From positions 1 through 64,000 of the forward strand of contig JAGXSV010000043.1 in the NCBI GenBank assembly GCA_018333605.1: DNA of 64,000 nt, in the 5' to 3' direction. This DNA comes from Hydrogenophaga sp. (lineage in GTDB: Bacteria > Pseudomonadota > Gammaproteobacteria > Burkholderiales > Burkholderiaceae_C). This document shows, in pieces, positions 55,936 through 60,295 of the stretch (positions are counted from its first letter, which is position 1; each line of letters starts with the position of its first letter). Below the pieces are notes generated by a model. It was given only the letters and a program-made list of their open reading frames with translations, did not search any database and had not been told where the DNA came from. Both the position numbers and the translations under genes were made by a program.

Positions 55936-57225
55936 GTGAGCTCGCACGATTATGTCACCCAGGTCTTTTCTTCACCGCTGGACATCCCGGCCGGCGCCTG
56001 GAACCACCTGCTGTCCCTGGAGACGGACCCGAGCCCTTTTATGGCCCACGCCTACCTGGCCGCGCTGCATGCCAGCGGCTGTGCACAGCACCCGGCTGGC
56101 TGGCAAGCCCGGTTCGTCACCCTGTGGCAAGGGGCCGACCTGCACGCGGCCTGCCCCCTGTACTTGAAGAACCATTCGTACGGCGAATACGTGTTTGACT
56201 GGGCCTGGGCCAATGCCTACGCCCAACACGGGTTGGATTACTACCCCAAAGCCCTCGTGGCAGTGCCATTCACCCCCGTCCCGGGTGCACGCCTGCTGGC
56301 CCGAAACACGGGGGCACGAACCGCGTTGGTTCAGGCGCTGCTGGCCCTCGCACGCGAGGACGACCTGTCGTCCTTGCACCTGTTGTTTGCCCAGCCACAA
56401 GACGTGACGGCCTGCGAAGCCGCAGGCATGATGCTGCGCCACACGGTGCAGTTTCACTGGAAGAATGTGGCCCCGACACTCGCCACCGCCCCGGCATCTG
56501 CCTTGGCCGATGCCGCAAGGGGTTCGCTGTCCACCGAGGGGGCTGGCCTGGCGGGCCCAGAGCCGCAGAAGTTTCAGGATTTCGAGCATTTTCTGGCCAG
56601 CCTGCAACAAGAAAAGCGCAAGAAGATCCGGCAAGAGCGACGCAAAGTGGCTGAGGCGGGGGTGGTATTTCGCTGGTCGCTGGGTACCGCCATAGGTGCA
56701 GTGGACTGGGACTTTTTCTACCGCTGCTACGAACGCACCTACCGTGAGCATGGCAACGCACCCTACCTGAACCGAGATTTTTTTCAGCGCATGGCGCAGA
56801 CCATGCCGGAGCACTGGTTGCTGTTCATTGCCGAGCGAGACGGCAACCCCCTGGCCAGCAGCCTGATTGGCATCGACCCGCAGGCGCGCGTGGCCTACGG
56901 GCGCTACTGGGGCGCGCTGGAGCGCGTGGACTGTCTGCACTTTGAAGCGTGCTACTACCAGCCACTGGACTGGTGCATCTCGCACGGCTACACCCGTTTC
57001 GAAGGTGGCGCACAGGGTGAGCACAAGATGGCGCGCGCCCTGCTTCCCGTCAAGACGACCAGCGCGCACTGGTTGGCTCACCCATCCTTCGCCGAAGCGG
57101 TGGAGCGGTTTCTGGAACGGGAAGACCAAGGTATCCAGCAATACCTGGATCATCTGGCACAGCGCAACCCCATGAAGGGCTTGCCGGCGCTGCGGACGCC
57201 GTTCGCGCCTCCCACCGCAGCATGA
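55936..57225 (+). CDS. GNAT/FemAB-like N-acyltransferase (COG3146 type)
   Basis: 429 aa; FDWAWANAYAQHGLDYYPKALVAVPFTPVPGARLL, RKKIRQERRKVAEAGVVFRW, HFEACYYQPLDWCISHGYTRFEGGAQGEHKMARALLPV. Confidence 0.88.
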   Translation: MSSHDYVTQVFSSPLDIPAGAWNHLLSLETDPSPFMAHAYLAALHASGCAQHPAGWQARFVTLWQGADLHAACPLYLKNHSYGEYVFDWAWANAYAQHGLDYYPKALVAVPFTPVPGARLLARNTGARTALVQALLALAREDDLSSLHLLFAQPQDVTACEAAGMMLRHTVQFHWKNVAPTLATAPASALADAARGSLSTEGAGLAGPEPQKFQDFEHFLASLQQEKRKKIRQERRKVAEAGVVFRWSLGTAIGAVDWDFFYRCYERTYREHGNAPYLNRDFFQRMAQTMPEHWLLFIAERDGNPLASSLIGIDPQARVAYGRYWGALERVDCLHFEACYYQPLDWCISHGYTRFEGGAQGEHKMARALLPVKTTSAHWLAHPSFAEAVERFLEREDQGIQQYLDHLAQRNPMKGLPALRTPFAPPTAA

Positions 57226-57475
57226 CAGGCTGCTCATGGCAGCAACATTCCTGGCGAGGTGGTGAGGCTCTCCCTGCCACGCAGGAGCCGGTCGCTAAAC
57301 TACGTCGAAAATGAACGAGACTGACGCCTTCTTCACCCAGACCATTGTCGGAGCCCCTTTTTCGGTGCTGCTGGGGTGCCGGCTGGATCCGAGCAGTGCT
57401 CCGGTCTCCGGCATCGAAGTCAATCTGATCAATGCAGACACCCGTTTGAGTCGCGTCTGGAAAGAATGGATCGTC

Positions 57476-57628
57476 ATGAGCCATGCCTGTGACCGCGTCG
57501 GCCAACCCCGCCAGCGGCCCGCCCGGGTGCGGCGTTGGCTGGAGCGCCACGCCCTGTGGCTCGCCACGCTCGGGGTGTCCAGCCTGCTCGCCACAGCAGT
57601 TTTCTGGGGGCTCATGCAATGGACGTGA
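57476..57628 (+). CDS. Small single-TM protein upstream of bactofilin
   Basis: MSHACDRVGQPRQRPARVRRWLERHALWLATLGVSSLLATAVFWGLMQWT; basic N-terminus plus one TM; overlaps the bactofilin start by 10 nt. Confidence 0.5.
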   Translation: MSHACDRVGQPRQRPARVRRWLERHALWLATLGVSSLLATAVFWGLMQWT

Positions 57629-58059
57629 AAACGCCACAAGACACGCTCACCATCGACCCCATTGCCATGAACGTGGTGAACCGGGTCGCGGCGGGCAGCC
57701 AACTGAGTGGCGATCTGAGCTTTGAAGGCGGCTTGCTGGTGCAAGGTGAAATTGCGGGCAATATCCGCGTCAATGGTCGCTTGATCGTGTGGACCGGCGG
57801 TGTCGTGCGGGGTCGTATCCGCGTGTCGGGCGACACCTACCTGTTTGGCCGCTTGGGTGCCGCCGGCGCCAGCGCCCACGACACCAGCCTGGAATGCCAG
57901 GGCATGGCCTATGTGTCAAAAACGGGCGTAGCCACGGGCACGCTGATGGCCAGGCGCCTGCAACTTTATGAGGGTGCCGACTTGCAAGGCCCGTTCAAGA
58001 CGCTTAAAAAGGGTGACAACCTCCCGGTGCTGCACGATGTGCTGCCAGATCCGCCATGA
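57619..58059 (+). CDS. Bactofilin-family protein #1
   Basis: NRVAAGSQLSGDLSFEGGLLVQGEIAGNIRVNGRLIVWTGGVVRGRIRVSGDTYLFGRL. Confidence 0.85.
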   Translation: MDVKTPQDTLTIDPIAMNVVNRVAAGSQLSGDLSFEGGLLVQGEIAGNIRVNGRLIVWTGGVVRGRIRVSGDTYLFGRLGAAGASAHDTSLECQGMAYVSKTGVATGTLMARRLQLYEGADLQGPFKTLKKGDNLPVLHDVLPDPP

Positions 58060-58079
58060 CCTGAAGGAGCATCCCCGCC

Positions 58080-58673
58080 ATGAAAGCCGACCGCTACCTC
58101 CACCCCGACCGCCACCTGGAACAGGACATGGACAGCCACCCACTGCAACCCGGCGAAGAAGCTTTCGCTTCCGAACCCCAAGCTGCCGATGCCTGCGACG
58201 GGAGCGGTCCGAACCCATCTATGGAGGTGGATGTGGGCAACGCCATGCCACCAACCCAGCCAGCCCACATGCCGGTTTTGCACCCCCAGGTGCAATCGGT
58301 GATGCCCATCGATGGTACCGACGGTGGCCAAGCGCGCAGCATGCTGGCCGAGGGCCTGCACTTCGTTGGCCATGCCGAACTCCGTGGCCCTTGCAGTATC
58401 GCGGGCACGTTTGAAGGCAACCTGACACAGGCGCCTGGCGCCCTGGTTTCGGTGGTGGTCACCGAAACCGGACGGGTCAAAGGCGACATCACCGCGCAAA
58501 AAATCGCCGTCATGGGGCGCACCGACGGCATCCTGGACTCAGGCCCGGGCGAGGTGTCCTTGCACGACACCGCCAGCGTGCACGGCCTGGTGCGCTACGG
58601 CCGCATTCAGGTGAACGGCGCCGACCTGAACGCCACGCTGGAGCGCGTGGCACCCAGCGTCAGCGCCCGCTGA
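58080..58673 (+). CDS. Bactofilin-family protein #2
   Basis: LAEGLHFVGHAELRGPCSIAGTFEGNLTQAPGALVSVVVTETGRVKGDITAQKIAVMGRTDGIL. Confidence 0.8.
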   Translation: MKADRYLHPDRHLEQDMDSHPLQPGEEAFASEPQAADACDGSGPNPSMEVDVGNAMPPTQPAHMPVLHPQVQSVMPIDGTDGGQARSMLAEGLHFVGHAELRGPCSIAGTFEGNLTQAPGALVSVVVTETGRVKGDITAQKIAVMGRTDGILDSGPGEVSLHDTASVHGLVRYGRIQVNGADLNATLERVAPSVSAR

Positions 58674-58700
58674 ATCCGCCGACAGACCTGCCGTATACCC

Positions 58701-59183
58701 ATGTTGTGGTCGCGCTCGGCTCCACCCGCACCGCCTGCCGCACCGGCCCACGTGCCCGATGCCCAGGCTCTGCTGCGCACGGCGCTCCGCGCCAGCTGGC
58801 AGCGCGATCAGCGCGTGGGCCGGCGCCGGTTGGCGCTGCGCTGGATGCTGTGGGCCTTCTGGCGCTACGGATTACCCTTGTTTCTGGTGCTCACTGCGGC
58901 TGTGGCGGTGTGGCTCTGGCTGTTGCCGGGCCTGCACCAGGCGCTGGCTGTGAGCAAACAGGACAGGCCTGCACAGCCGACCGCACCAGCCGCCTCGCAG
59001 CATGCGCCAGCAGCGACAGGGCCCCACGAAACGGCCGCCGACGCCATCACGCTGCGCCGGGAGCCAAGTTGGTCGCCGAGCCCCTTCCCGTCAACTGCAG
59101 CAGGCGACACGCCGGCGGCCACCCAAGCCGTCCAAGACCCCTCTCTCAAACCCGACAACTGGTTGCACAGCAAGGAGCCCTGA
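58701..59183 (+). CDS. Single-TM protein with basic cytoplasmic N-terminus, interleaved with bactofilins
   Basis: RASWQRDQRVGRRRLALRWMLWAFWRYGLPLFLVLTAAVAVWLWLLPGL, then a low-complexity Pro/Ala tail. Confidence 0.65.
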   Translation: MLWSRSAPPAPPAAPAHVPDAQALLRTALRASWQRDQRVGRRRLALRWMLWAFWRYGLPLFLVLTAAVAVWLWLLPGLHQALAVSKQDRPAQPTAPAASQHAPAATGPHETAADAITLRREPSWSPSPFPSTAAGDTPAATQAVQDPSLKPDNWLHSKEP

Positions 59184-59187
59184 CCCC

Positions 59188-59592
59188 ATGAGCCAAAACC
59201 CCGCCACCACCCGCCTGGTCCCCGTTGAGCGTCTGAGCGCCATCACCAGCCTGATTGCCGAGGGCGCCGTATTTGACGGCAACTTCCACACCACCCAAGA
59301 CCAAGGTATCAAGGTGGATGGCCTGCTCAAAGGCAACATCACGTTTGAGAGCGGCGGCACGCTGCATGTGGGCGCCACCGGCGTGATTGAAAACACCCGC
59401 CTGGAAGCCGACTACGTGTTCATTGAGGGCAAGGTCATTGGCACGGTGATTGCGCGCAAAGCGCTCGAAATCACCGGCTCCGCCACCTTGCTGGGCGATG
59501 CCAGCTACGACGAAATGATCGACATGCATCCGCGCTCCCGCGTGCGCGGCAAGATCGAATACCGCGGCGACATAGACGCAGCCGCATCCTGA
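59188..59592 (+). CDS. Bactofilin-family protein #3
   Basis: AITSLIAEGAVFDGNFHTTQDQGIKVDGLLKGNITFESGGTLHVGATGVIENTRLEADYVFIEGKVIGTVIARKALEITGSATLLGDASY. Confidence 0.9.
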   Translation: MSQNPATTRLVPVERLSAITSLIAEGAVFDGNFHTTQDQGIKVDGLLKGNITFESGGTLHVGATGVIENTRLEADYVFIEGKVIGTVIARKALEITGSATLLGDASYDEMIDMHPRSRVRGKIEYRGDIDAAAS

Positions 59593-59604: not shown

Positions 59605-60295
59605 GCCCGTCAATCTGGTCATCGGGATAGAGGGGAGCCGTCTGGCTCCACCCCTCCCACACCACCCGGCTTGCGGGTCCGCATCGGGCTGGTGCAATGG
59701 TTGAGGTCGTCAGCGTTGTCGTTACACCCGACCCGACGCCCAGGCTTGCCTTGTCTTGGTTCGGCGGGACCGATTCCTCTGATTCCTCTGCTTCCTTTCT
59801 GCCACGGCCTTTCGGGCTTCACCCTGTCCACCACTCTGGCAAGCTTCGCTGACGCGAACATTTGGGGCATTTCACTTCCGGTAACCAAGGGGGTTTGCCC
59901 TCCCATTGCTTCGGTCCTTCACACTGCCCATCCGGCCTTGAGGGCCTCGTACCCGCGCTACCACGACCTCTGCTGACTTCTCGCTCCGGCCAGGCCGTCG
60001 CTCTTTCCGGCACAGGCGAGATATCCCCAGGTCAGAACGCACACCTTCATCGCACAGCCGCCACATCCACGCCACCGTGCCTTGCCTTGCCTTGCCTTGC
60101 CTTGCTCACAAGAGCTTTGCGGTTTCTGGCCCGCTCGCCCTGCCCGGCAGCGCCTTCTGTGGGGTTCTTGTCCATCGGCTCGCGATTCACGCTCCACGCT
60201 TCCTTCCCACGCTCGGCCACCCTCACGCAGTTGCGCTTCACTTTGCTCCCTGTGACCAGCCCGCAGCGGGCCTTGCACCCGCAGGTGTGAGCCCA
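59605..60295 (-). mobile_element. Putative ORF-less group II intron remnant (3' domain V/VI-like end at ~59605-59710 on minus strand)
   Basis: Minus: ..GACGACCTCAACCATTGCACCAGCCCGATGCGGACCCGCAAGCCGGGTGGTGTGGGAGGGG..GGCTCCCCTCTATCCCGATG. Hairpin with two-nt bulge and tetraloop resembling domain V; no reverse transcriptase ORF; 5' boundary unknown. Confidence 0.5.
60079..60107. repeat. Pentanucleotide tandem repeat (GCCTT)n, ~5 copies
   Basis: gtgccttgccttgccttgccttgccttgctc. Confidence 0.85.

Follow-up and report, generated by a model that had tools for sequence, protein, structure and literature searches.

Well-studied bactofilin systems often pair a membrane-binding bactofilin with a cell-wall enzyme. 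Most bactofilins are reported to be membrane-bound through a short N-terminal peptide of consensus MFSKKKK (PMC12448750), a feature that is common rather than universal in the family. In Caulobacter, BacA carries such a peptide and is bound by the 13-residue tail of the cell-wall synthase PbpC, whose overproduced membrane anchor fully restores the localisation of BacA devoid of its targeting peptide (PMC12448750). The M23 peptidase LmdC binds BacA, at about 15 uM, through its cytosolic region, in which a beta-hairpin is conserved; the lmdC gene overlaps bacA (PMC10945521). In Helicobacter pylori, the non-enzymatic single-pass protein Csd5 binds the bactofilin CcmA through its short cytosolic N-terminus and the cell wall through its periplasmic SH3 domain (PMC9448923). 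In Myxococcus xanthus, BacN, BacO and BacP are reported to form one heteropolymeric scaffold that places ParAB with the help of the ParB-like adaptor PadC (PMC5703909).

Here we describe a putative operon, sp1-bac1-bac2-tm2-bac3, that extends over positions 57311-59592 (forward strand) of the window, the whole 64,000-nucleotide stretch of Hydrogenophaga DNA that was analysed. It encodes no enzyme, its three bactofilins have no targeting peptide, and two small membrane proteins appear to supply the attachment; anchoring and cargo would thus be the business of different proteins. Like bacNOP-padC, it combines three different bactofilin genes with non-bactofilin genes in one putative operon; unlike it, the chromosomal operon of Hydrogenophaga has no ParB gene (no PadC-type ParB-like adaptor gene lies downstream), whereas the adaptor PadC has a ParB-like domain and no single-pass anchors were found in the accessible portion of that report (PMC5703909). 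The sp1 protein can be likened by its layout to LmdC, a transmembrane partner with a short cytosolic segment whose gene overlaps the bactofilin gene (PMC10945521), but sp1 and tm2 lack a peptidase domain, there are three bactofilins instead of one, and no M23 peptidase gene adjoins them, the neighbours being nadE, femAB, ppa and hppA. With PbpC it shares the succession of a conserved N-terminal cytosolic peptide, a variable stretch, a basic stretch and a TM helix, and the PbpC case shows that an anchor acting in trans can replace the targeting peptide; however, the PbpC anchor belongs to a cell-wall synthase and its partner BacA bears a targeting peptide (PMC12448750), while in Hydrogenophaga the proposed anchor is enzyme-free and the bactofilins are without one. 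Csd5 is similar in being a non-enzymatic single-pass protein whose short cytosolic N-terminus binds a bactofilin (PMC9448923), as we propose for sp1, yet sp1 has no periplasmic domain comparable to the SH3 domain.

The five-gene operon and the start of sp1

All five genes lie on the forward strand: sp1 (57311..57628), coding for a 105-aa single-pass membrane protein without an enzymatic domain, bac1 (57619..58059), bac2 (58080..58673), tm2 (58701..59183), coding for a second single-pass membrane protein, and bac3 (59188..59592). A previous sequence-only reading of this DNA had recognised three bactofilins, and the Pfam domain search agrees, with PF04519 scores of 49.6, 56.3 and 57.9 bits for bac1, bac2 and bac3 against a curated cut-off of 27.9 bits, which places three distinct bactofilins in one putative operon. 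The two basic single-TM proteins without family match that were said to precede and separate the bactofilins were also found: sp1 and tm2 have one TM segment each by hydropathy, and neither has a Pfam or NCBIfam domain above cut-off. A weak Pfam match of sp1 to the Rv2743c family fell below the cut-off and was discarded. In both proteins a strongly basic stretch precedes the TM segment and a nearly neutral one follows, so the N-terminus is expected inside by the positive-inside rule; no significant similarity between sp1 and tm2 was detected. The compact layout held as well, with the start of bac1 overlapping the stop of sp1 by 10 nt, gaps of 20 nt (bac1-bac2), 27 nt (bac2-tm2) and 4 nt (tm2-bac3), a FemAB-like gene in front and no peptidase among the four identified neighbours. 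The gene content is thereby established, and that part of the earlier observation is confirmed.

The start of the first TM gene, which had been put at 57476 (50 aa, 57476-57628), was wrong. Conservation of the full-length 57311 frame, the alignments and the placement of the -10 box rule it out, and establish 57311-57628 (105 aa) as the true frame. A start at 57476 drops the first 55 residues, including the most conserved stretch of the alignments, M[DN]xxDAFFTxTIVGxPxxVxLGRR, and with it the N-terminal domain escaped the earlier reading. Full-length orthologues with 43-75% identity are present in 50 of 67 Hydrogenophaga genomes, and pN is lower than pS across the N-terminal 55 codons in nine of nine pairs, by a clear margin in eight and only just in the ninth, L120/L125. 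Within this stretch, the near-invariant cytosolic motif AFFTQTIVGAPFSVLLGCR (57326..57382, forward strand), with the core FFTxTIVGxPxxVxLG located N-terminal to the TM helix, is our candidate for a bactofilin-docking segment. The conserved segment is followed by a variable part, the basic stretch and the TM segment, which lies near the C-terminus such that, by hydropathy and the positive-inside rule, the N-terminus would be cytosolic; only a few to about 25 residues extend beyond the helix in relatives. An AF2 model of sp1 alone gives a confident helix at residues 72-104 and low pLDDT at the N-terminus, which is compatible with folding on binding without demonstrating it.

The -10 box TAAACT (57296..57301, forward strand) is found 9 nt before the sp1 ATG as part of a predicted promoter. 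Of 50 distinct upstream sequences, 41 have a TANNNT-type box, mostly TACACT, TAAACT or TACAAT, that ends 6-9 nt ahead of the ATG, a count inflated by sequence relatedness, and the box is also present in the distant members L178 and L186. A generic sigma-70 promoter scan did not list it. As the box is only 6-9 nt from the ATG, we predict that the operon is transcribed from a promoter of its own into a leaderless mRNA, with the transcript starting at or near the sp1 ATG, a feature that the sequence-only reading did not include. The reading frames of sp1 and bac1 overlap in 40 of 46 loci.

Each bactofilin has a conserved N-tail of its own. In bac1 it reads DTLTIDPxxMNxVNR, and the AF2 model of the protein is a beta-helix (pLDDT 81.7) whose best matches are the PDB bactofilins 6ria, 6rib and 2n3d (Foldseek probability 1.00, TM-score by target 0.74-0.84, E-values 0.003-0.05); the right-handed beta-helix fold is thus seen in bac1, the one bactofilin of the three that was modelled. 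The bac2 protein begins MKADRYLH and has a long, apparently disordered N-tail with the conserved linear motif EVDVGNAMPPTQPAHMPVL (about VGxAMP...PVL; 58224..58280, forward strand), recognisable even in distant members. The most conserved bactofilin of the set is bac3, at 78-93% identity within Hydrogenophaga, with the N-tail xRLVPxxRLxAIxSLIAEG. Conservation of tm2 covers its cytosolic part, with an RR-rich region seen in the alignment (58752-58844, forward strand), and the TM segment (58869-58925, forward strand, hydropathy), while the periplasmic tail is variable: the Pro/Ala-rich tail previously noticed is there in the window gene and missing in some orthologues (L114, L117, L118). The tm2 protein ends in a conserved SKEP, but the underlying nucleotides include the AAGGAG ribosome-binding site of bac3, and the residues may be conserved because of this overlap. 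In several relatives it is uncertain at which codon bac2 and tm2 start. Between bac3 and ppa, parts of a group II intron occupy positions 59621-60226 of the window on the reverse strand (RF02001, 71.6 bits; RF01998 and RF00029 below gathering score), with no obvious intron protein frame; in the close relative L106 the bac3-ppa spacing is only about 0.1 kb.

Distribution of the module and its neighbours

As the genome assembly that contains the window is 62% complete, in 83 contigs, statements of absence rest on its relatives. The usual locus in Hydrogenophaga is nadE(-)-femAB-sp1-bac1-bac2-tm2-bac3-ppa(-)-hppA, and among 36 named loci all that are untruncated keep the order from sp1 to bac3. 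The full state was found in 37 of the 67 genomes; the genomes with tm2 and those with a chromosomal bac3 are the same 37 without exception, and sp1 is present in all of them, a co-occurrence that partly reflects the linkage of genes in one operon. With 50 and 37 of 67 congeneric genomes carrying sp1 and tm2, respectively, the conservation of both TM ORFs, on which the earlier proposal depended, is established. A short state is seen in 13 genomes that have sp1 and neither tm2 nor a chromosomal bac3, and in the six such loci read, sp1-bac1 stands alone between femAB and ppa. The remaining 17 genomes, some of them incomplete, gave no convincing sp1 match, and in all eight module-less genomes that were inspected femAB immediately adjoins ppa. 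On the FemAB tree the short state requires at least three changes, judged by well-supported branches. The block bac2-tm2-bac3 was apparently lost repeatedly while sp1-bac1 was kept, the simpler reading because the five-gene order is also present in outgroup genera; this modularity in two blocks had gone unremarked in the earlier reading. Natural five-gene, two-gene and zero-gene states within one genus, which we regard as established, make the division of labour testable.

The synteny survey extended this picture, as the same five genes recur in the same order beside unrelated genes in other genera of the family (L177-L179, L182, L184, L186). In L181, the motif alone identified sp1; L183 is a distant module without tm2, L180 keeps the ppa-hppA neighbours in another genus and the L187 contig is short. 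No peptidase was noticed among the genes flanking these loci, which were inspected by eye. Judged by gene order, sp1-bac1-bac2-tm2-bac3 is a self-contained unit. An order-wide search with bac1 scored high only in Hydrogenophaga and gave weak matches in three other genomes, and a scan of viral contigs found no relatives of bac1.

Proposed membrane attachment and alternative roles

All 14 canonical bactofilins of the family that were read carry an MF.KK-type targeting peptide, among them that of the window genome, which starts with MFGKKKQP and is encoded close to an M23 peptidase gene (locus C61). None of the bac1 and bac3 N-termini listed has such a peptide, nor has the start of bac2, and the three conserved N-tails take its place; its absence and the TM segments of sp1 and tm2, the latter by hydropathy, are firm results. 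We think it probable, though far from certain, that the operon is a self-contained, enzyme-free bactofilin scaffold held in trans by the anchors sp1 and tm2. The bactofilins, without targeting peptide, would polymerise in the cytosol, and the two dedicated single-pass anchors would hold them to the inner membrane, sp1 presenting the FFTxTIVGxPxxVxLG segment and pairing with bac1, and tm2 presenting its RR-rich cytosolic segment and pairing with bac2 and bac3. Physical binding, the pairing of partners and co-polymerisation are inferred; by analogy with BacNOP, co-assembly of the three bactofilins is plausible. The earlier suggestion that sp1 and tm2 are dedicated bactofilin partners gains support from the fixed order across genera, the identical presence of tm2 and bac3, the block losses and the missing peptide. 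Counting against anchors are the persistence of CcmA clusters in H. pylori upon loss of its TM partner Csd5 or Csd7 (PMC9448923), the L183 module and the conjugative-element copies, which are without tm2, and the low confidence with which the sp1 N-terminus alone was modelled.

Alternatively, sp1 and tm2 could be clients of a scaffold that reaches the membrane otherwise, for example by co-polymerising with the canonical MFGKKK bactofilin, such that the scaffold positions sp1 and tm2 and the real work is done elsewhere, as in the periplasmic tail of tm2. The known TM partners PbpC and LmdC are indeed clients (PMC12448750, PMC10945521), Csd5 includes its own periplasmic domain (PMC9448923), and the canonical targeting-peptide bactofilin near the M23 peptidase gene is available in the same genome. 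However, sp1 has almost nothing past its TM helix and the tm2 tail is missing in some orthologues, which leaves little for a client to do and makes this role rather doubtful. It is also unlikely that the three bactofilins and two TM proteins make up a module for shape control whose cell-wall enzymes are encoded elsewhere and recruited in a manner resembling bactofilin-M23 pairs; several studied bactofilins act on cell-wall enzymes (PMC10945521, PMC12448750) and the genome has the M23 peptidase gene at C61, but this gene is near the canonical bactofilin and not the sp1-bac3 operon, and the module in other genera had no peptidase noticed by eye at its flanks.

In most Hydrogenophaga loci the FemAB-like gene (here 55936..57225, forward strand; PF04339, 442.7 bits) closely precedes sp1 in the same orientation, a conserved position that could indicate one cell-wall modification operon made of FemAB, sp1 and the bactofilins. 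This possibility is largely refuted and appears very improbable, since femAB is retained next to ppa in all eight module-less genomes, the module has its own predicted -10 box, and in other genera it is mostly in unrelated contexts. A functional link with FemAB is thus not supported, and we rejected it as a component of the system; given the unrelated genes beside the module in other genera, it is a neighbour and not a member.

Relatives on conjugative elements and plasmids

The same genome contains a second, diverged sp1-bac1-bac2-bac3 set without tm2 (contig C83, L009:6364-8061), not noticed in the sequence-only reading. It is directly followed by a ParB-HTH gene, after which come DUF4400, TraD of the SXT type and, as a weak match, a MobH-like relaxase. 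The same layout, again with ParB and SXT-type TraD, recurs in another, near-complete Hydrogenophaga genome (G151, contig C28, L188:14643-16437). With a ParB gene behind them, the copies resemble bacNOP-padC, where the gene of the ParB-like adaptor follows (PMC5703909). A bac1-like bactofilin is also carried by seven Comamonadaceae plasmid records. In the five plasmids read, its gene always comes directly after that of a hypothetical protein which apparently has a TM segment, and three of the five have PRTRC ParB genes downstream. On plasmids of Polaromonas JS666, Hydrogenophaga PBL-H3 and BPS33 (L197, L198, L201), a gene for a Pro/Ala-rich protein with an apparent TM segment precedes the bac1-like gene, which is upstream of PRTRC partition genes. 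An N-terminal motif of the plasmid TM proteins aligns with the sp1 motif at the expected place; the hhalign comparison with sp1 was not significant (probability 0.4%), and 1, 72, 495 and 1098 of 5000 shuffles reached the score of the four proteins compared, so that homology to sp1 is only suggestive.

It is possible, and we propose it tentatively, that the family is a general plug-in of a TM protein with a short docking segment and a bac1-type bactofilin, whose mobile versions would tether the element to the membrane for partitioning or conjugative transfer. The basis is the location of the mobile versions near ParB-HTH genes on conjugative elements and TraB or PRTRC ParB genes on plasmids; if true, the chromosomal operon would be a relative of these that works for the cell. 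A partition role of the mobile versions is worth testing because the bacNOP-padC scaffold is reported to place ParAB (PMC5703909). Versions beside ParB suggest that bactofilins may serve conjugative elements, a role not found in the literature searched: no paper combined bactofilin with Hydrogenophaga, and bactofilin with integrative and conjugative elements returned a single paper, about Pseudomonas ParB.

Two further arrangements were seen. On contig C83, which also carries the element-type operon, another bactofilin (34.2 bits; L010:2541-5932) lies between an actin-like ALP gene and the gene of a 340-aa protein with no family match and apparently one TM segment. On a plasmid contig of another genome (G102, C2; L043:7285-8422), tandem bactofilins related to bac2 and bac3 adjoin a DUF1173 gene, with an RdgC gene further on.
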